A stretch of 32,702 bases of DNA from Verrucomicrobiales bacterium (lineage in GTDB: Bacteria > Verrucomicrobiota > Verrucomicrobiia > Verrucomicrobiales > DEV007): NCBI GenBank assembly GCA_020852405.1, contig JADZAX010000159.1:1-32702 (forward strand), read 5' to 3'. Position 1 is the first letter of the stretch; the number at the start of each line of letters is the position of its first letter. A program made the position numbers and the translations under genes. Below are positions 1,003 through 21,237 of this stretch, in pieces. The notes under the pieces were generated by a model. That model did not search any database, had not been told where the DNA came from, and saw nothing but the letters and a program-made list of their open reading frames with translations.

Positions 1003-2472
1003 TCACACAAACAACCGGTCCACCGCCTGGGCTTTGACCAGTTCTCGGGGCTGGTTGAGATGGTTGAAGACGATGGTTTCTGGATCAATCCCCATGCTGT
1101 GGTAGATCGTGGCCAGAATTTCCATGGGATGAACCGGATCTTCCACGGGCGCCGAACCGGTATTGTCCGACTTGCCCAGAACAAAGCCTCGCTTGATTCC
1201 GGCGCCACCGATGACGCTGGTGTAGCAGTAAGGCCAATGGTCCCGACCGTCGGCACTGTTGCTGTTGCCGGAGGTGCTGACACCTTTCTCCGGGCTGCGC
1301 CCGAATTCGCCAATGGCGACGACGAGGGTCTCCTCAAGCAGTCCCCGGTTGTCGAGGTCCTCAAAAAGAGCGCTCAGGCCCTGGTCCAGCATGGGACCGC
1401 TCTGGTTCTTCATCCGGTTGGACAAACCGACATGGTGATCCCAGCTGTGGTTGTCCGAATTGGCGACTTTGGGCCAAATGACCTCCACCACCCGGGTACC
1501 GGCCTCCACAAGACGCCGGGCCAGCAGACAGCTCTGACCAAAGGTGTTCCGACCATAGCGGTCACGCATGGCTTCGGTCTCGGAGCCGAGGCTGAAGGCA
1601 TCGCGCGCCCGACCTGAAACCAGAAGGTTGAGGGCCTGATTGTAAAACTCGTCGATGTTGTACTGGGCCACCGCCTTGTCGATGATGGGCATCTGGGCAT
1701 TGATGGCCTCGCGCAGGCTGGCCCGGCGGCGCAGACGAAGCGAGAAGACCTCGGGACGCAACTGGAGATCGTCCACTTTGATGCTGTCCATCTTCGCCAG
1801 ATTCATGTCATCCCCTTCCGGGAAGAGGTAGTAGGGATCAAAGGCCTTGCCGAGGAATCCCGCGGTGCCGCCTTTGTTGACGACATTGGATTCCTGCAGC
1901 GGACGCGGCATGACCACGAAGGGCAGCATCGGCTCATCCGTGGGCTTGAGACGGATGATGTTGGATCCGAAATTGGGGAAGTCTTTCGGACTCGGTGGTT
2001 CCAGCTGACCCGAGGGACTGACCTTGTCCGTGGTGTAGCCGGTCATGATCTGGTAGATCGCCGCCGTGTGGTTGAACAGCCCGTTCGGAGTGTAGCTCAT
2101 CGACCGGATCATGGAGAACTTGTCGTTCACCTGAGCCAGTTTGGGCAGGATTTCCGTGAAATTGACTCCGGGAATTTTGGTCGGAATGGGCTTGAACTGG
2201 CTCCTCACGTTGTCCGGCACGTTCTCTTTCGGATCCCACAGGTCAAGATGGCTAGGTCCGCCCTGCAGGTAGACCATGATGACACTCTTGGCCTTGCCCC
2301 ATCCCGGACCTCCCGCCAAGGGGCTGCCGGTGCTGGCCGCTTGGGCGCGCATGAGGGTGTTGAGGCTCATGCCAAGCATCCCGGCCCCTCCGACGCGGAG
2401 GAAATCGCGACGGCTGGCCCGCAGATGGTTGTCACACAGGTCTTTTCCTTTGGCTCCGGGAATTCTGAACAT
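1003..2472 (-). CDS. DUF1501 domain-containing protein (Tat-exported)
   Basis: 489 aa; N-terminal [18 protein letters not shown] Tat-like motif; [19 protein letters not shown] and [10 protein letters not shown]...[28 protein letters not shown] are typical of DUF1501. Confidence 0.92.
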
Positions 2473-12249: not shown

Positions 12250-12477
12250 TCACCCCATGCTGCCGCTCCAGACGGTGAGCAGGACGCAGATTGCGACGAC
12301 GGCAAAAGCCAGCAGAACCAGGCCGGCAATAATTGCAATCACCTTCCCCTTGGTCTGCCGCCACTTGGAAAGGCCAAACACCAAGGCAACCAGCGCGGAG
12401 ATGAACAAGGGTCCCAGGACCAGGGAGAACGTGGGAACCCCCAGCAAGGCCAACATGGAAAAGCGTTCCGGGTTCAT
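12250..12477 (-). CDS. Small two-TM membrane protein (DUF4190-like)
   Basis: 75 aa MNPERFSMLALLGVPTFSLVLGPLFISALVALVFGLSKWRQTKGKVIAIIAGLVLLAFAVVAICVLLTVWSGSMG; two hydrophobic helices. Confidence 0.6.
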   Translation of the reverse strand: MNPERFSMLALLGVPTFSLVLGPLFISALVALVFGLSKWRQTKGKVIAIIAGLVLLAFAVVAICVLLTVWSGSMG

Positions 12478-12532
12478 GGTTTCGAATGGATGCGATGCAG
12501 GATTGGGTCAATTTCTCCATTCCCCCGCCGAC

Positions 12533-12605
12533 ACCAAACAACAAGCATCGATTCCTGGCTCCGCAACCGTTGCAGGCGGACCCGGGGGCTTGTCTTTGTG
12601 TTGCC
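12533..12605 (-). other. Candidate attC-like imperfect hairpin (site E)
   Basis: Minus strand GGCAACACAAAGACAAGC...GCTTGTTGTTTGGT; outer arms CAAAGACAAGC / GCTTGTTGTTTG pair imperfectly and enclose TCCGC...GCGGA; ends in GTTTGGT, as site C does. Confidence 0.3.
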
Positions 12606-12734
12606 AAAATCCAACAATTCCGACTCCACCATCTAAAGCTGTTCGGCTGTTGTTTTCCTGATCTCCGGATGACCGGGATGAGATCGTTGACGAGATGTTT
12701 TCCTTCATTCCATCGCGCTAAAATCCAGGCTCAG

Positions 12735-13040
12735 CTAAACATAGAGAACAAACGCCAACCATAGGCCAGACCATCCGCACGCGACCAACGCGAGGCAGCG
12801 CGCCCAATGAAAACGCCCCCCTCTTGTGCGCCACAAAAAAAGAGCGGCGGCTGGAACGCACAGAATCGTGGCGACGAGTTGGGAGGCGTGAAAGAAAGAC
12901 TGCGACCAACCGAGTCGTTCAGCGAGAAGGATCGCAGGAAGACAGGCAAGCGCGTAAATTCCGGCTCCCAGGAAGAGAGGGTGTGCGACGGAGGTGATCA
13001 CCGTCCGGGGAGCGTTGAGGGTGGCGGTTGATTGATTCAT
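12735..13040 (-). CDS. Hypothetical membrane protein
   Basis: Likely start MNQSTATLNAPRTVITSVAHPLFLGAGIYALACLPAILLAERLGWSQSFFHASQLVATILCVPAAALFLW...; multiple TM segments. The upstream alternative start at 13112 is less convincing. Confidence 0.55.
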   Translation of the reverse strand: MNQSTATLNAPRTVITSVAHPLFLGAGIYALACLPAILLAERLGWSQSFFHASQLVATILCVPAAALFLWRTRGGRFHWARCLALVACGWSGLWLAFVLYV

Positions 13041-13123
13041 GGCGCTAGAAATGTGTCCTCCGAAGGTGAAATCAGGATGAAGGCAGGAAGAAATTGGCAT
13101 GAATTTTTTCACGAACGCTCAGG

Positions 13124-13332
13124 CTGATTCTCGCTGGGGGACTGTCGAAAATCAGAAACGCATAAGACGCTCCACCCGCGTCGGTGTGCGACGGCGGGCC
13201 TGTTCAACAACCGACCGATGGGTTGGGTGTTTATCGCCCAAACCCATCTTTGGAGCTCTGCTTCTAAATTTTTCGGAAGAGCAAGTCGGACGCGGAGATG
13301 GCGAGGCCCCTGCCATGAGACAATATGGCAGG
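13124..13332. ncRNA. Candidate structured element: series of tandem stem-loops in a non-coding spacer
   Basis: CTGATTCTCG/CGAAAATCAG (13124-13155); CCCGCGTCG/CGACGGCGGG (13175-13198); GATGGGTTGGG/CCCAAACCCATC (13217-13248); weaker GCTC..TTC/GAAGAGC (13255-13282); CCTGCCAT/ATGGCAGG (13309-13332). Confidence 0.35.
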
Positions 13333-13453
13333 CTGCGGGATTCAAGGGGCGTGACCTCTCTAGGCCAGCAGCGGCTGACGATGCTCCACCAGACCTCCTC
13401 CGTATGGCTTTTGCTTTTCTTCTTTCTCTCGTGGTGGGGTGCCACCGAAGGAA

Positions 13454-13825
13454 TCATTTGCCGGTCACGAGATGGACCATGGATGCAGGTGACCGGATCC
13501 AAAAACCGTCGAATCCGTCAGGTAGTTTCTCAACACTGTCACAACGTTCCACTCCACAGCGAGTGAGGTGCGCTGCGGCCGAAGCCGTGTCAGGTGTGGC
13601 TATCTCAAGCCATACTTCGGCAGTCTCGATTCCCTCCACTCGATCCAGCCAGAGCACGGAACTTCCAAAATGGAACATATGATCGACCGACTGGCCTGAT
13701 ACAGGGGGGAGTCTCAGTACATCCCGGTAAAACACGAGCGTCTCCTCGAAGGACTCCGGGGGAATCTTAATGGCAATGTTAGGCCCACCGCAGAAAATCG
13801 GAAGCTGGTCTGGTGTTGAAGGCAT
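13454..13825 (-). CDS. VOC / glyoxalase-bleomycin resistance-like domain protein
   Basis: MPSTPDQLPIFCGGPNIAIKIPPESFEETLVFYRDVLRLPP...MFHFGSSVLWLDRVEGIETAEVWLEIATPDTASAAAHLTRCGVER...GFWIRSPASMVHLVTGK; VOC pattern. An in-frame ATG at 13912 could extend it. Confidence 0.72.
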   Translation of the reverse strand: MPSTPDQLPIFCGGPNIAIKIPPESFEETLVFYRDVLRLPPVSGQSVDHMFHFGSSVLWLDRVEGIETAEVWLEIATPDTASAAAHLTRCGVERCDSVEKLPDGFDGFWIRSPASMVHLVTGK

Positions 13826-13913
13826 GGCTGCTAAAGGATTCAGGTGAGGGCGAGATCGATCAAATGGGCGGCACCGTTGGTTTCTACTTGGAGGCAATGG
13901 ACTCTGTTTCATG

Positions 13914-13963
13914 ACCAAACGTGCGAGCGTTGGCAGCCCCGGTAGCGGGAGCCCGCGTTGAAC
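13914..13963 (-). other. Candidate attC-like hairpin (site C) upstream of the VOC ORF
   Basis: Minus strand GTTCAAC-GCGGGCTCCCGCTACCGGGGCTGCCAACGCTCGCAC-GTTTGGT: left box fits RYYYAAC, right box is 6/7 to GTTRRRY, internal stem GCGGGC-TCCCG / CGGGG...GCTCGC; in-frame ATG one nt after GTTTGGT. Confidence 0.4.
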
Positions 13964-14092
13964 CGAGGTTGTAGATGGCATCATCGCTACCAAAGGGGCT
14001 GAGGGAAGTGGCATCCTCGCCTTCCATGAGAAAGCAGTCAAACACATCAGGAAGTTTGCTTCAATGCCCTACTCTACGAGGATTCGGAGGAA

Positions 14093-14116
14093 GTGACTTG
14101 TGCAATGCCGAGTCAC
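14093..14116 (-). terminator. Stem-loop immediately 3' of the lipoprotein stop codon
   Basis: + GTGACTTG-tgcaatgc-CGAGTCAC (7 Watson-Crick pairs + 1 GU), directly next to the stop at 14118; no strong U-tract. Confidence 0.35.
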
Positions 14117-14117
14117 G

Positions 14118-15272
14118 CTATGGGGTAAGCCGTTTGATCCGCAATCTAGCGGCTTCAACATTCGCATATCGGATCCGATCACCCACCGTTTTGTCCCCGG
14201 TGAGTTCAACGAGGATCGCGATCGCCGCTTCAGCGCTCGCCGATGGCTTCCGGGCCAGCTTCTCGACAAACGTGGAGCACAGCGCCGAACCATGCTCCTC
14301 GTATAGCGCATGCCAAAAGGCGAAAGACAGGGCATATCCCGGAGAAAAGGAAACTTTCTCGGGGACACGGCCGAATCTGCTTCTTTGGGTGAATTTCCAG
14401 GGAATCACCTGGAACTCGGAGAGAAGATCGACCGTCTCCCGATCACCAATCTGCGCGGGCGCAAGCCGTTCGATGTAATCCTTCGGAAGGCCATGGACTT
14501 TCCACGTGACAAACTCCGCCAATCCATCGCCAATGAAGCGATTTCGAGGGTCATCATAGAGCCCGAAGGCGGAGGTAAGGGTCGACTCCGTCCATTCGTG
14601 GGGGTTGATGTCCATGAATGCACCACTCTCCCAATCCTCTTTGAAACACCTCCAACAGGACTCGTAGCCGGCGGCCGGAACCGTCAGGTAAAGGACGTCC
14701 CTTTCTTTCCGATTGGTTTCGAGAATCACCGCCCAGCGCATCGGTTCAAGGCCCAGAAAGGACTTGATCACTCCACGGGCGCGGATCAATTCAGTTTGCA
14801 CTTCGCGGGCCAGAGCCACATCGCCATCATCATGAAAAACGGCAACGCGGGAGTCTCCGATTTTCTTCAGGTCAGCGGCCGCGCGCACCTGGACTGACCT
14901 GACGTCGCGCCCCGTCTGTTTTCCGGAAATCCTCACCACGAGGTTGACGCCCTTCGGTTCGATGCGGATGGGCGGGTTTTTCCAGAGCAGCGCCGAATCG
15001 ATCGGAACCATGACCTGCCCAGCACCATCGCTCTCAAAAACGGTCGGGTCCGGTGAATTACCGACGATCAACCGGGCGCCGGGAGCGGCTACTTTCGTAT
15101 CAGAGTGAACCAGATAGACTGGAAACACTTCCAATCGATTCGGGGACACTCCCATCCGACTGAGCGGCAGGAATAGATCCTTGTAATGATACTCCGAAGC
15201 GGCACACCCCGCGAGGATCCCGCATGCTGCCAAAACCAGAAATTTGGGGCCTTGCGTGAAACACATGAGCAT
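14118..15272 (-). CDS. Lipoprotein with gluzincin (peptidase MA)-like domain, degenerate zinc motif
   Basis: LAACGILAGCAAS lipobox; INPHEWTESTLTSAFG...RFIGDGLAEFVTW...SPGYALSFAFWHALYEEHGSALCSTFVEKLA resembles HExxH...GLAE gluzincin architecture with HEWTE instead of HExxH. Confidence 0.6.
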   Translation of the reverse strand: MLMCFTQGPKFLVLAACGILAGCAASEYHYKDLFLPLSRMGVSPNRLEVFPVYLVHSDTKVAAPGARLIVGNSPDPTVFESDGAGQVMVPIDSALLWKNPPIRIEPKGVNLVVRISGKQTGRDVRSVQVRAAADLKKIGDSRVAVFHDDGDVALAREVQTELIRARGVIKSFLGLEPMRWAVILETNRKERDVLYLTVPAAGYESCWRCFKEDWESGAFMDINPHEWTESTLTSAFGLYDDPRNRFIGDGLAEFVTWKVHGLPKDYIERLAPAQIGDRETVDLLSEFQVIPWKFTQRSRFGRVPEKVSFSPGYALSFAFWHALYEEHGSALCSTFVEKLARKPSASAEAAIAILVELTGDKTVGDRIRYANVEAARLRIKRLTP

Positions 15273-15274
15273 CG

Positions 15275-15335
15275 GCAGCTCGTCAAAGGCTAGCGCCTCC
15301 CGAACCGGGGGCGACGCTTCGACGGTGAGTTGATG
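15275..15335 (-). other. Candidate attC-like hairpin (site B), related to site A
   Basis: Minus strand CATCAACTCACCGTCGAAGCGTCGCCCCCGGTTCGGGAGGCGCTAGCCTTTGACGAGCTGC; shares CAAC-N5-GTCGAAG...CCTTTGACG with site A (17587-17646). Confidence 0.35.
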
Positions 15336-15369
15336 TGGAAATGGTCATGTCGGCGGGAACCCGCGCCGG

Positions 15370-15816
15370 TCAAGGGTTCAGTGCTGGATCTGGTTGTGCC
15401 TTAGCAGTTCGCAGCTGGAGTTCGGATGCAAGAGCTGCCAGAATTTCGAGATGGGCACCGAAGAATCTCATCTTCGTTCCATCAGCAAAGTTCAGCTTGG
15501 CGGCAAAAATTCCAGACGGCACCTGCATCGAGATGAACTCGGAGGCAGGAGCCTTGGAGAGAATCCACTTGTCGAGCATCCGGTGCTCAACCCGGTCTCC
15601 CACGAAGTGGATGCTGAACATCAGTGTCGGCAAAATTGCGAGTCCGATGACCAGAGCAGGCAAGACCACAATGACCGTAAGCGGGATCAAACGCGCAAGT
15701 GGCAATCGTTCATAAAATACGAACATTGCGGCACTGAAGGCGTAGGCCACGCCTCCAATCACCAGCCCGACGATAACGCCTCTCCGAAGCTGCTTTGCTG
15801 TGTTACCGACGCGCAT
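15370..15816 (-). CDS. Hypothetical two-TM protein with PH-like soluble tail
   Basis: 148 aa; GVIVGLVIGGVAYAFSAAMFVFY and LIPLTVIVVLPALVIGLAIL TM segments, then FADGTKMRFFGAHLEILAALASEL. Confidence 0.55.
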   Translation of the reverse strand: MRVGNTAKQLRRGVIVGLVIGGVAYAFSAAMFVFYERLPLARLIPLTVIVVLPALVIGLAILPTLMFSIHFVGDRVEHRMLDKWILSKAPASEFISMQVPSGIFAAKLNFADGTKMRFFGAHLEILAALASELQLRTAKAQPDPALNP

Positions 15817-15919
15817 TCAATTTTGCCCAGAAAGAGCAACCAAGTTTCGTTCAGGCTCTGTTTCAAACGTTTTAGAGATGGCAGTCCAATCTGTGAGCGT
15901 GATCTCGAAAAGAAAATAG

Positions 15920-15965
15920 GAATTCAAATGAGAGAAGACAATCAACTCGGGGCGTGATCGGGCTC
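15920..15965. repeat. Intergenic repeat copy 1 (pairs with 17059-17104)
   Basis: GAATTCAAATGAGAGAAGACAATCAACTCGGGGCGTGATCGGGCTC; 38/46 identical by eye to 17059-17104. Confidence 0.75.
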
Positions 15966-16044
15966 AGAATCCTCGACATGTTCGGCTTGGGATTCTTCCT
16001 GCCGTGAAAATCCTCGCCGGGCAATTGAATCGAAACGATTGGAT

Positions 16045-16263
16045 TCATTCAGGCTGTTTCCTGCTTTCCATCCTTTGCTTCCAGAATTTTGCTGCGAAAC
16101 ACGGCAGTGAAATACCGACAACCAGACAGAGTCCACCCATCAAGGAGTAGTCACCCACACTTTTTTCCTTGAGTGAATCGATCAACGATGAGCCAAACTG
16201 AATCGCAGTTCCACACAGAGTGAGAACAAAAAAGAAAAAGACAATGCCTCCTGGTTTCATCAT
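16045..16263 (-). CDS. Small hypothetical two-TM protein
   Basis: 72 aa MMKPGGIVFFFFVLTLCGTAIQFGSSLIDSLKEKSVGDYSLMGGLCLVVGISLPCFAAKFWKQRMESRKQPE. Confidence 0.45.
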   Translation of the reverse strand: MMKPGGIVFFFFVLTLCGTAIQFGSSLIDSLKEKSVGDYSLMGGLCLVVGISLPCFAAKFWKQRMESRKQPE

Positions 16264-16277
16264 TCAGGTAAGTTCTG

Positions 16278-16321
16278 AGCCAACGACCCGCATCACGGGG
16301 CGGTGGGTATTGACGTTGAAT
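16278..16321 (-). other. Candidate attC-like hairpin (site D)
   Basis: Minus strand ATTCAAC-GTCAATACCCACCGCCCCGTGATGCGGGTC-GTTGGCT: left box fits RYYYAAC, right box 6/7 to GTTRRRY; CAACG/CGTTG and ACCC/GGGT pair; ORF start 14-17 nt downstream. Confidence 0.4.
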
Positions 16322-16362
16322 TCAAAAAGCGCGTGCCACCGCCGCTATCGTGCACGCGAAGG

Positions 16363-17001
16363 TTATTTTGACTTGTTGTGATTTGTTTCGACGAATGATA
16401 CTCGGATACGTGACAGGACATCCAGATCGGGCGAGCCTCCGGAATCAAATGTCAGTGCGATTCGGTGTTTGCCATCAAGTGTCACGGGCTTTTCGAATCT
16501 GAGAGCCAATTGATGCGACTGGACACTTTGTGTGAACGCCGGAACCGTCCATCCTGTATCAGTCAAGGAGTCGATGCAATTGGCGGGTGATCCATCTTCA
16601 GTGTTACCTAGGTCGACGCAGTCCGAGAACTCCAATGATGTCATTTGATCCGTGCGATTCTCCAATTCCGGCTTGATATCAAAAAGAACTAATCGCTTGC
16701 GTTGACGTGGGCGGTTGGGACCCACCGACGGTGTCGGCGGCAACAACTCCACGAGGATTTCCCGTAACTGGTTTGGTTTCTGAGACTTAAAATAGAGCGT
16801 GAATTCCTGCCACCGAGTATCTCCTCCGAGCTGAACCGAACGGTCGTCTAGTATCTGCGCCGTTCCAAGGGACCGGAACACGATCTTGTCGGGACGAGTT
16901 GGAATCCACTTTGCTGGTTCTGCAACTTGCTCTTGAGCAATCCCGAGTGCACTTAGCAAAACCGCGATGATGAAGAAAAGGAGGCGCATTTGCTCTTTCA
17001 A
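16363..17001 (-). CDS. Secreted protein resembling the galactose-binding-like region of DUF1553-type proteins
   Basis: Signal peptide LLFFIIAVLLSALGIAQ; FTLYFKSQKPNQLREILVELLPPTPSVGPNRPRQ...SPANCIDSLTDTGWTVPAFTQSVQSHQLALRFEKPVTLDGKHRIALTF aligns by eye with a segment of the 2524-7668 product. TTG start at 17001 or ATG at 16989. Confidence 0.6.
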   Translation of the reverse strand: MKEQMRLLFFIIAVLLSALGIAQEQVAEPAKWIPTRPDKIVFRSLGTAQILDDRSVQLGGDTRWQEFTLYFKSQKPNQLREILVELLPPTPSVGPNRPRQRKRLVLFDIKPELENRTDQMTSLEFSDCVDLGNTEDGSPANCIDSLTDTGWTVPAFTQSVQSHQLALRFEKPVTLDGKHRIALTFDSGGSPDLDVLSRIRVSFVETNHNKSK

Positions 17002-17058
17002 ATTAACATTCGAGGAATCGCAGCCTGATCTGGCAGCGATGCTTCGATTGGAGGATAA

Positions 17059-17104
17059 GGATTCTAATCAGAGAAGTCAATCAGCTCGGAGCGTGATCAG
17101 GCTT
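17059..17104. repeat. Intergenic repeat copy 2 (pairs with 15920-15965)
   Basis: GGATTCTAATCAGAGAAGTCAATCAGCTCGGAGCGTGATCAGGCTT; 38/46 identical by eye to copy 1. Confidence 0.75.
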
Positions 17105-17132
17105 GCGATCGCCGTCTTGTTGGGCGCGGATT

Positions 17133-17579
17133 TCATGGCGGGTCTCCATCGGATATTACTCGCTCGCTTGGCCAATCTACAAAGACTTGGAGCCCCTTCT
17201 GTAACGCTTCGCTAATTTGTTCGCGAACTTCCACCAGCGGTTTTTCATCAAGGATGCGATCTCGATGAATCGACCATGTTTTCGTATCGAACGAGAAAGC
17301 GCTGACAGCAGCTGTTAGCACGAGGGGAAGCTCCTCAGTGGGATCAGGTGGCCGGTTCGTTTTGGGATCTCGACTTCCGACACGACAGTCGAAGGTTTGG
17401 AAGTAGCGAGATACAAGGTCGGACTTTTGGATTGTTCGGCAGGGGGGATTGAAGTCACCGTCCTGTGATCTCCTAAATTCGAATCCGTGTTCTTCTGCGA
17501 ACGATTCAAACAGAGGAGTAAACTCCTCCAAGACCTCATCCAACTTGATGATCAGAGGGTGAGAGTGGCCGGATCTCAT
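17133..17579 (-). CDS. Hypothetical protein
   Basis: 148 aa MRSGHSHPLIIKLDEVLEEFTPLFESFAEEHGFEFRRSQDGDFNPPCRTIQKSDLVSRYFQTFDCRVGSRD...; starts 7 nt after a GTTGGGC box, as cassette ORFs do; no family recognised. Confidence 0.5.
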   Translation of the reverse strand: MRSGHSHPLIIKLDEVLEEFTPLFESFAEEHGFEFRRSQDGDFNPPCRTIQKSDLVSRYFQTFDCRVGSRDPKTNRPPDPTEELPLVLTAAVSAFSFDTKTWSIHRDRILDEKPLVEVREQISEALQKGLQVFVDWPSERVISDGDPP

Positions 17580-17586
17580 TTTCTTC

Positions 17587-17646
17587 GCCCAACGTCAAAG
17601 GTCTGGCGCCGCCTACTGGGGGGCGCCTTCGACCGCAGGTTGAGGC
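17587..17646 (-). other. Best candidate attC site (site A), 60 bp
   Basis: Minus strand GCCTCAACCTGCGGTCGAAGGCGCCCCCCAGTAGGCGGCGCCAGACCTTTGACGTTGGGC: GCC(T)CAAC / GTTGGGC pair with one bulge, GGTC...GACC and GGCGCC...GGCGCC pair; right box fits GTTRRRY exactly. Confidence 0.5.
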
Positions 17647-17730
17647 TAGTAGTTACGGTGATCACTGAAACTTGGAGTGCGTAGGCGGTTGTCCAGCACC
17701 GCCTCGTTCGGCTCGGGTGTCTTGCTGTGT

Positions 17731-19197
17731 TCAAGGTATATCGAGATCGCCAACGCCTTCGTCGGTGATCGAAGGTCCGTGTCCGTCTGTCGAGACGGGG
17801 CTTTTGCCATCTTCGGAGGCCATGTTCGGTTTGCCGTGTGCCAGACCCACCCTCGCGACATAGCTCAGCGCGAGCGGCTTGGCGGATTCCTTGCCCAATG
17901 CATTGAGGCGATCCTGCATCGTGGCCACCTTGTCGGGATGCGCCGCCGCGAGGTTGTTCTTTTCATAGGGGTCTTCGGCGAGGTCGTAAAGGTCAACACT
18001 CGTGGGAATGAGCGTGCGCCAAATCAGCTTCCAGTTGCCCTGGCGCACTCCGCCGCGGAACGGCTCGACGTTGTAGATGACTTCGGAGCGCGGCGAGGGT
18101 TTGCCCTCAGCGATGGTGTCCCAGACATTCACGCCATCGAGCGGCTTGCACTTGGCGATGGACGCACCGGCTAGCGCGGCAAACGTGGGATAAATATCCA
18201 CGGCGTGCATGGTTCCGTCCACGGTCTGGGGCTTGATGTGGCCGGGCCAGTTGGCGCAGGCAGCCACGCGACAGCCGCCTTCGAAGAGCGAACCCTTTCC
18301 ATCTCGATAGGAGCCGTTGTCACAAGGTATCTTCGTCTTGGACAAGTCAGCCATCTGGCCGGCAAACATCGCGTTCTTCGTGCCGCCGTTGTCGCTGTGG
18401 AAAATAACGAGCGAGTTGTCGCGCAATCCCTTCTTGTCGAGCGCGGCGACTACGCGGCCGATCTCGTCGTCGAGGCAGGTAACCATGCCGGCATATGTAC
18501 GGCGCGTCAGGTCTTCAATGTTGGGATAACGGTCAACATAGTCCTTCGGAGCCTGATAGGGCGTGTGCGGGGCGTTGAAGGCGAGGTAGAGATAGAACGG
18601 CTTTTTCGGATCCTGCTGGTTGATGTATTTCACAGCGTCATTGCCGATGAGCTGGGTGGTATAGCCTTGTTCTTTGACGGGCTTGTTGTTGCGGAACCAG
18701 TCGAGCACGCCGGCGTCGCTGTGGGTGTAATAGTCCAATTCCCCGATCATCGCGCCGTATTGATAATCGAAGCCGCGCTGCTTTGGCCAATACTTCGTGT
18801 CCGCGTGGCCGAGATGCCACTTGCCGATGATCGCGGTCTCGTAGCCGGCTTCCTTAAGGCACTGGGGGAGAAGCCACTCGCTGGTGTCGAGACCGTAATC
18901 GGCGGGGCCGGGGATGACGATGGTTTGCAGACCGTAGCGGAAAGGATAACGGCCAGTTAACAGTGCTGCGCGCGTCGGTGTGCACATGGGCTGGACATAG
19001 AATTGTGTGAACTTCGCACCGCCCGCAGCAAGCGCGTCCAGATTCGGCGTCTTGATGTCGGTGCAACCGTTGAAACCAACATCCTTCCAGCCGAGATCAT
19101 CGGCGACGATATGGACGATGTTGGGTTTGTCTGCCGCATGAGCGGCTGCACTGGCAAGGGCTATCCCGAGTAGGGAAAGGATCAATGTGTGTTTCAT
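17731..19197 (-). CDS. Sulfatase (arylsulfatase family, Cys-type), secreted
   Basis: ADKPNIVHIVADDLGWKDVGFNG...FYVQPMCTPTRAALLTGRYPFRYGLQ (C-x-P-x-R formylglycine motif), AIIGKWHLGH, FHSDNGG. Confidence 0.93.
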   Translation of the reverse strand: MKHTLILSLLGIALASAAAHAADKPNIVHIVADDLGWKDVGFNGCTDIKTPNLDALAAGGAKFTQFYVQPMCTPTRAALLTGRYPFRYGLQTIVIPGPADYGLDTSEWLLPQCLKEAGYETAIIGKWHLGHADTKYWPKQRGFDYQYGAMIGELDYYTHSDAGVLDWFRNNKPVKEQGYTTQLIGNDAVKYINQQDPKKPFYLYLAFNAPHTPYQAPKDYVDRYPNIEDLTRRTYAGMVTCLDDEIGRVVAALDKKGLRDNSLVIFHSDNGGTKNAMFAGQMADLSKTKIPCDNGSYRDGKGSLFEGGCRVAACANWPGHIKPQTVDGTMHAVDIYPTFAALAGASIAKCKPLDGVNVWDTIAEGKPSPRSEVIYNVEPFRGGVRQGNWKLIWRTLIPTSVDLYDLAEDPYEKNNLAAAHPDKVATMQDRLNALGKESAKPLALSYVARVGLAHGKPNMASEDGKSPVSTDGHGPSITDEGVGDLDIP

Positions 19198-19263
19198 TCA
19201 GTTCTATCTGTTGTTTGGCGTGAGGCGAATGATCGGTTTCAGTTGCTTGCCGAACGGTTGAAT

Positions 19264-19269
19264 ATTATA
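19264..19269 (-). promoter_or_regulatory. Candidate -10 box (TATAAT) for the sulfatase gene
   Basis: + ATTATA = TATAAT on the minus strand, about 67 nt upstream of the ATG at 19197; no clear -35. Confidence 0.3.
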
Positions 19270-19782
19270 CACCAATCTGGCGTACGATCACCCCTGACAT
19301 CAAAAGGCCAGCATTTTCCTGTGTGATTGGTGCTGAATGGATAATACGGGCTCGCCCGAGTATGATCCAAAGCGGCAACGTCACACAGATCCCAGGCTTT
19401 CTAAACCTCGACCATGCCACAATTTCCAACCAGCGTCCATCTGAAAAACCGGGCGCTCTCCGAATTTTGAAAGACCGTCGCCCGCCCCATCTGGTTTGGA
19501 AAATCCCCGGACCGCCGGATCGCCTCCAGTTGGGTAGGCACTCGGCTCCCGTGGCGACTTCCCCTCTCGTCGAATCGTCCCTTGGTCGCACATTTTCACT
19601 CTATTCGTCGCCCCCCTCCCGGGGCTGGTCTAAAACACACCGGGAGCACCCCATTTCGCCCATCTGCGACATCTCCCCTCCGGCACGAGGCGCTGAAATG
19701 ACGGACCAAAATTTCGCCCGTGGCCTGATAACGCCCCTGTCCGGGCTTGATCCGGAGGAGGCAACCCGCTACGTTTGCCTGC

Positions 19783-21237
19783 ATGCCACCGGAATCCATC
19801 TCCCCTTATCTCCCCACGCGCCGCGACTGGCTGCAACGGGCGGGCTGTGGGTTCGCGCACCTCGCATTCGCCGGATTGGCCGCCCGGGAAGGGCTCGGCG
19901 CCACACCCGCGACAGTCCGGAATCCCCTGGCGGCCAAGCACGGCCCGCTTCCGGCCCGGGCCAAGCGGGTCATCTTTCTCTTTATGCAGGGAGGGCCGAG
20001 CCATGTTGATTCCTTTGACTACAAACCGGAACTGATCGCCCGGGGCGGGACCAGCGTGCCGTTTTTTGATTCCCGTACCGTGGCCAACACCGGGGACGTC
20101 AAGGCGACCGAACAGACGCTGATGAAGCCGCTCTGGAAATTCTCCCAGCATGGCCAAAGCGGTCTCTGGGCCTCGGATCTGTTCCCCCGGATGGCCTCCC
20201 TGGCCGATGATCTCTGCCTGATCCGCTCGATGCACACCGAAGGGGTGGCGCACGGTCCTTCCACGTTGTTTCTCCACTGCGGGGCGACCAATTTCATCCG
20301 GCCCTCGATGGGCTCCTGGATCACCTACGGCCTGGGGACGGAAAACGAAAACCTGCCCGGGTTCATCAGCATCAGTCCCTCGACGGGGAACGGCGGTCCC
20401 CGGAACTATGGCAATGCGTTCCTCCCGGCCGTCTACCAAGGGACGCCGCTCGGTTCGGCGGGGCGCCCGGCCTCTGAGGCGACGATCCGCAATCTCGTGC
20501 CCTCGGCAGGCCCCCTCTCACCCCGGAAACAGTATGACCTGTTGCAGGCGCTGAACGCCGAGCAGGCCGCGCGCCGCCCGGGGGATGCCGAGATCGACGC
20601 GGTGATCCGCTCCTATGAACTGGCCTGGCGCATGCAGGCCCATGCCCCGGAGGTCCTCAACGTGGACGAGGAGTCCGCGGAAACGAAAGCGCTCTATGGC
20701 ATCGGGGAGAAAGAGACCGACTCCTTCGGTCGGCAATGCCTGCTGGCGCGGCGGTTTGCCGAATCCGGGGTTCGCTACATCCAGGTGACCTACGGGGACA
20801 ACTCAGCCAATCCCGCCTGGGACCAACATTCCAACCTGCCCAAGCACGGGGAGCACGCCGCCCGGGTCGACAAACCGATCGCCGGCCTGCTCCAGGACCT
20901 GAAACGTCGCGGGCTCCTCGAGGACACGCTGGTCTGGTGGGGAGCGGAGTTTGGCCGCACGCCCTATGCCCAGAAAAACGGGACCGGCCGCGACCACAAT
21001 CCCACGGGCTTCACGACCTGGCTCGCGGGAGCCGGAGTCAAACCCGGCTACTGCCATGGGGAGACGGATGAATTCGGCCACTCCGCGGTGAGCGACAAGG
21101 TCCACATGCACGATCTCCACGCGACGATCCTGCACCTGCTGGGGCTGGACCATGAACAGCTGACCTACCGCTTTGACGGACGCAACTACCGTCTCACCGA
21201 TGTCCACGGGCAGGTGGTTCGCGAGATTCTGGCCTGA
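19783..21237 (+). CDS. DUF1501 domain-containing protein (Tat-exported)
   Basis: Start MPPESISPYLPTRRDWLQRAGCGFAHLAFAGLAAREGLG; KRVIFLFMQGGPSHVDSFDYKPEL; WWGAEFGRTPYAQKNGTGRDHNPTGFTTWLAGAGVKPGYCHGETDEFG. Confidence 0.93.
   Translation: MPPESISPYLPTRRDWLQRAGCGFAHLAFAGLAAREGLGATPATVRNPLAAKHGPLPARAKRVIFLFMQGGPSHVDSFDYKPELIARGGTSVPFFDSRTVANTGDVKATEQTLMKPLWKFSQHGQSGLWASDLFPRMASLADDLCLIRSMHTEGVAHGPSTLFLHCGATNFIRPSMGSWITYGLGTENENLPGFISISPSTGNGGPRNYGNAFLPAVYQGTPLGSAGRPASEATIRNLVPSAGPLSPRKQYDLLQALNAEQAARRPGDAEIDAVIRSYELAWRMQAHAPEVLNVDEESAETKALYGIGEKETDSFGRQCLLARRFAESGVRYIQVTYGDNSANPAWDQHSNLPKHGEHAARVDKPIAGLLQDLKRRGLLEDTLVWWGAEFGRTPYAQKNGTGRDHNPTGFTTWLAGAGVKPGYCHGETDEFGHSAVSDKVHMHDLHATILHLLGLDHEQLTYRFDGRNYRLTDVHGQVVREILA

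Follow-up and report, generated by a model that had tools for sequence, protein, structure and literature searches.

A partly decayed integron cassette array without a neighbouring integrase, carrying attC sites of a Verrucomicrobiales type

Eight small ORFs lie on the minus strand of a Verrucomicrobiales metagenome-assembled genome (5.1 Mb, 83% complete, 648 contigs) at positions 12250-17579 of contig C159, and this whole 32.7-kb contig (32,702 nt) is the window analysed here. The original prediction held that most of them have no recognisable family and that they are a candidate integron-like cassette array without an integrase (CALIN). The ORFs are indeed present and none of the eight passed the Pfam gathering cut-off. 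The question raised by this locus is whether the genes were brought together as mobile cassettes or are ordinary chromosomal genes with hairpins between them. We conclude, with a probability of about 0.95, that approximately 12641-19255 of the minus strand is an old, partly decayed CALIN built of cassettes of gene plus attC. Its status as a CALIN is confirmed by covariance model matches, by breaks of similarity at G^TT, by the pairing of cassettes with their own left ends and by whole integrons with the same attC in relatives. The array is ordinary in kind, its lineage is poorly described, and its left end was moved to 19255.

The attC sites were detected with two lineage-specific covariance models. 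Model R1 was trained on two window spacers (17.0 and 15.9 kb) and on five sites from relatives, and in its alignment (A2) 12 of the 24 pairs had changed on both sides, showing that structure was kept over sequence. R1 found the predicted site A, which was outside the training set, with 44 bits (E 3e-10), and it gave 228 matches lying in same-strand arrays in 335 kb of loci, which were mostly selected for holding such sites. Model R2 was built from 150 of these 228 matches and scored site A at 68 bits (E 1e-14); it also detected arrays in G040, a genome of another family of the same order. Sites found by R1 at E 1e-3 occurred in 52 of the 74 genomes of the family, while a sample of the phylum contained R1 sites at E 1e-6 in 7 of 214 genomes. 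A 22-mer from the attC loop was searched among 85,462 species, and 29 of the 29 named stretches belonged to Verrucomicrobiota, mostly Verrucomicrobiales MAGs. The R1 and R2 matches are far above background, where the original prediction had allowed that none might be found. Rfam gave no match, fold-based scans missed the long sites, and BLAST of site A against its own genome returned no copies. No strict RYYYAAC..GTTRRRY pair was found in the window, since R' forms like GTTCGGC are frequent in this lineage and the outer R' bases derive from the next cassette. Other attC of the same family were present in the genome on contig C59 (L134), at C83:8598-8726 and at C488:4043-4167, and C59, with four to six same-strand attC, is a second CALIN.

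The array starts at an R' box GTTCGGC (19249-19255, minus strand, as are all features below), with the crossover between 19255 and 19254. A TATAAT at 19264-19269, just upstream, could by its sequence be the array promoter; this is a guess, and a consensus promoter scan did not pick it. One of the two DUF1501 genes of the window, at 1006-2472 (-) and 19747-21234 (+), adjoins the array start. Cassette 1 (17593-19254, ends placed by comparison) carries a sulfatase gene at 17731-19197 (Pfam Sulfatase, 3.9e-62). The block was thus not simply inserted among secreted-enzyme genes as had been predicted, since this sulfatase is itself the first cassette. Likewise, the reading of a CALIN on the minus strand held, but its left end is 19255 and not 17646, and the membership of 12250-12477 is uncertain. 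Site A proved real, extending over 17587-17714 rather than 17587-17646; this attC 1 has R' GTTGGGC at 17587-17593 and R'' at 17706-17713. Cassette 2 (17007-17592) encodes a 148-aa protein without assigned family (17133-17579) and is followed by attC 2 (17001-17127, 137 bits), and attC 4 (15862-15988) scored 115 bits; both are in the R1 training set. These two best sites of the window were not among A, C and D, the three that had been singled out as strong. The spacers of attC 2 and attC 4 are homologous, and their genes are unrelated.

Cassette 3 (16284-17006) is read from the sequence only; it encodes a 208-aa protein without assigned family (16363-16989), with left end TTAATT and R'' AAATAAC at the stop codon of the gene. 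The degenerate attC 3 (16278-16370) extends the predicted site D, for which R' GTTGGCT (16278-16284), the R'' and a hairpin are present and covariance model support is absent. Between attC 3 and attC 4 lies cassette 4 (15868-16283), with a gene for a 72-aa protein without assigned family (16045-16263). Its R'' AGCCGAAC would pair with its left end GTTGGCT provided that one base was lost, as the two ends agree only with one base lost from GTTCGGCT. Cassette 5 encodes a membrane-like 148-aa protein without assigned family (15370-15816), which has a 65% homologue in a clear array of G069; its degenerate attC 5 (15274-15401) has lost R' and scored 13 bits with R2 (E 0.15). Cassette 6 encodes a putative lipoprotein of 384 aa (14118-15272), with homologues of 57% in G012 and 54% in G035. 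At attC 6 (13914-13990), the predicted site C, only the 3' half is recognisable: it shares 18 of 23 bases with the family, a match exceeded by only one other in the window. The site as a whole scored 6 bits, which is no covariance model support, and it is probably decayed. Cassette 7 encodes a 123-aa protein without assigned family (13454-13825; 44% homologue in G003) and its boundaries are inferred. The left end of cassette 8 is an R' box GTTCGTG (13110-13116), where similarity to G002 begins and G002 reads GTTCGGC. The 101-aa protein of this cassette, without assigned family (12735-13040), has a 72% homologue in G002 that is bracketed by two attC. Its R'' AGCCGAAC (12641-12648) is shared with G002, similarity ends past R'', and the remaining attC is unrecognisable; as the last sequence common with G002, position 12641 probably lies near the right end of the array. 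A 75-aa ORF at 12250-12477 showed no homologue in the family and no attC, and is a candidate member only. In total, attC 3, 5, 6, 7 and 8 are degenerate or unrecognised and only three window sites score well, a decay that fits an array seldom or no longer recombined. A separate locus, L073:3500-8304 (G069:C635), is a cleaner array than the one in the window, its approximately nine small genes being accompanied by highly regular attC.

The boundaries of the cassettes were placed by comparison with related genomes. In three independent cassettes the homologues stop matching at G^TT: cassette 2 at 17593 (two copies), cassette 1 at 19255 and cassette 8 at about 13116. The gene of cassette 2 is 82-83% identical to two G081 genes located in different places; the window and both G081 copies align from exactly G^TTGGGC, and the DNA upstream is unrelated. 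Past the stop codon of cassette 2, R'' reads GCCCAAC and complements GTTGGGC at the left end of the same cassette; the G081 copy on C58 has left end TTGAGC and R'' GCTCAAC, so that both ends were changed together. In cassette 1, GTTCGGC (19249-19255) complements R'' GCCGAAC (17706-17712) at 4 of 4 bases, and a G035 sulfatase, 84% identical, follows an unrelated attC and is similar to the window precisely from GTTCGGC onwards. For cassette 8 the similarity to G002 spans GTTCG to R''. By sequence comparison, the identity of the cassettes, the crossover point and the movement unit by unit are clear. The block could alternatively have been syntenic and conserved in relatives, an outcome that had been named as speaking against cassettes; instead, homologues of the eight ORFs were present in only 8 of the 75 family genomes (the own genome counted), each time in an unrelated location and always singly. 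The genes to the right of the array are common in the family, and a search for a syntenic empty site gave none among its results. An association with phages was dropped, as the seven cassette proteins scanned had no match in PHROGs and the loop 22-mer was absent from viral contigs.

A more general comparison used the structure of the R' box, which in an array consists of one G of the own cassette and TTxxxx of the following one. Movement as circles closed at G^TT predicts that R'' is complementary to the TTxxxx at the left end of its own cassette. Across related arrays, 142 cassettes were compared, and their outer four bases paired with the own left end at 3.34 of 4 positions (99 perfect), against 1.85 with the adjacent R' and 1.87 (sd 0.08) for shuffled ends (own-end z 18.6). 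A further 33 cassettes, from loci nearly all of which were outside the training set and most of which adjoin intI, gave values of 3.70 of 4, 2.09 and 2.05, respectively (z 9.8). In the window itself the pairing is perfect (4/4) for cassettes 1 and 2 only and imperfect for the others. The own-left-end pairing is decisive for the integron reading of the whole family. It also refutes the view that the block is an ordinary run of small chromosomal genes with terminators or REP-like hairpins between them, in which site-specific recombination plays no part, as R'' pairs with the far left end of the cassette and not with the adjacent R'. Terminator-like patterns do occur in the region, at chance level (10 against 7.4 expected, sd 2.6), and shuffled sequence folds as well as several of the window hairpins, but the similarity breaks at G^TT, the scattered homologues and the arrays adjoining intI make this view extremely improbable. 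For the CALIN, the proposed mechanism is that an integron integrase from elsewhere, present or past, would recombine the folded bottom strand of attC at G^TT, and that cassettes, each a single gene plus its attC site, would be cut out as circles and then reinserted, leading to growth of the array. The same recombination would disperse identical cassettes across related genomes. The bottom-strand reaction is carried over here by analogy from integron knowledge, and we infer that the genome's own integrase may have built the array.

The prediction that no integrase is visible in the window was correct, since TIGR02249 had no match on the 32.7-kb contig at E up to 10, and CALIN is thus the right name. 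A complete integron would have an intI and attI adjoining the array; no intI lies on the contig and no attI was identified, and relatives such as L125 have the complete arrangement. IntI proteins above the TIGR02249 cut-off were detected in 24 of 57 relatives. Locus L125 is a whole integron, with an IntI of 337 bits, a divergent array and attC with the same loop, and its first cassette has the end GTTAGTGC and R'' GCACTAAC. Using R2, attC sites were found adjoining seven more intI genes besides L125; an early reading of stand-alone intI in relatives was dropped, as arrays adjoin eight of those intI. The order of integrase and array varies: in L047 (G040:C1:2260000-2275000; at least 12 attC) and L050 (G006:C79) the integrase is on the same strand as the array, which lies 3' of it and is thus inverted, and L054, the second integron of G040, has the usual divergent order. 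The search of the own genome for an integrase, proposed with the original prediction, gave no complete intI and only two C-terminal ends resembling IntI. Both lie at ends of other contigs (L137:1-87 and L138, at its 3' end), and their short length makes them insufficient evidence of a working gene. The two are nearly identical and one lies near a tRNA-Thr gene, which points to repeated copies of intI that the assembly lost. Together with the 83% completeness and the 648 contigs of the MAG, such scraps would also suit a complete integron cut off from its intI by an assembly break, with only the array visible. We consider this very unlikely, as the contig continues for more than 12 kb on each side of the array and has no intI, so that the integrase does not adjoin the array unless the contig is chimeric.

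Many attC loops of the family contain a conserved TTGACT-N17-TAnnnT. In the window, attC 2 has TTGACT-N17-TATCCT at 17080-17052 and was the only match of a simple promoter scan, and attC 4 has TTGTCT-N17-TATTTT at 15941-15913. The pattern is missing from site A and from G040, and each of the 24 aligned genomes has it in one site or more. There is an even chance, judged from sequence conservation, that this Verrucomicrobiales attC family bears a working sigma70-type promoter in its loop, which would drive the gene of the downstream cassette; transcripts would then start inside attC and would lack the 5' arm of the hairpin. Genome-weighted conservation was 1.80 bits at nine key positions, against 1.14 in the 17-nt spacer and 0.86 in the middle of the -10, although the key positions were chosen post hoc and the sites share ancestry, so that the permutation p value is too favourable. 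Counts of the pattern were 98 in sense inside attC, 8 in sense outside and 3 in antisense. It is nearly as plausible that common descent, or recognition by IntI or a host protein, accounts for the conserved loop rather than promoter function, and conservation concentrated at the key positions and the sense bias inside attC speak against this. In its favour, the attC of chromosomal integrons are usually alike in sequence (PMC8618304), the flanking GAGTTGAT is conserved as strongly as the hexamers, 21 sites of the G040 arrays have a different loop that lacks the element, and the upstream regions of four tRNAs gave no clear promoter consensus of the lineage (n = 4 only). The promoter-like element is possibly the new part of the finding.

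Compared with known systems, the locus agrees with CALINs as defined by IntegronFinder 2.0 (PMC9024848) in having at least two same-strand attC, compact small genes of unassigned function and no intI nearby. Its three covariance-supported sites lie within 1.9 kb, all on the minus strand, and were assigned with the lineage-specific model, not with that of IntegronFinder. A long conserved loop marks them as a Verrucomicrobiales type of attC. Degraded attC, of which the window holds several, are expected in CALINs (PMC9024848). Like the Vibrio-type sedentary chromosomal integrons (PMC8618304), the locus has unrelated cassettes with homologous attC at a spacing of about 600 nt and mostly unassigned genes; unlike them, it has a short array without intI, and many of its relatives have a promoter-like attC loop. 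Integrons have been reported from Verrucomicrobiota (PMC8618304). Conservation of attC sequence and structure within a taxon is in accordance with the taxon-specific classes of Ghaly et al. 2021 (PMC8352920), whose 11 attC classes include none for Verrucomicrobiota. The putative transcription from within an array would resemble that of the promoter-bearing gene-less cassettes of Vibrionaceae, among which cassette F2 has start sites even within attC (PMC11014356). Those cassettes are gene-less, whereas here the putative promoter belongs to the conserved attC loop of gene-bearing cassettes.

In conclusion, an uncultured Verrucomicrobiales family has a rich cassette system, with an attC type that is present in 52 of 74 genomes and is outside the published taxon-specific attC models. 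If the loop promoter is real, arrays of this family, CALINs included, could stay expressed far from any Pc promoter. A promoter travelling inside the recombination site may thus be one answer to the problem of expression far from, or without, Pc.
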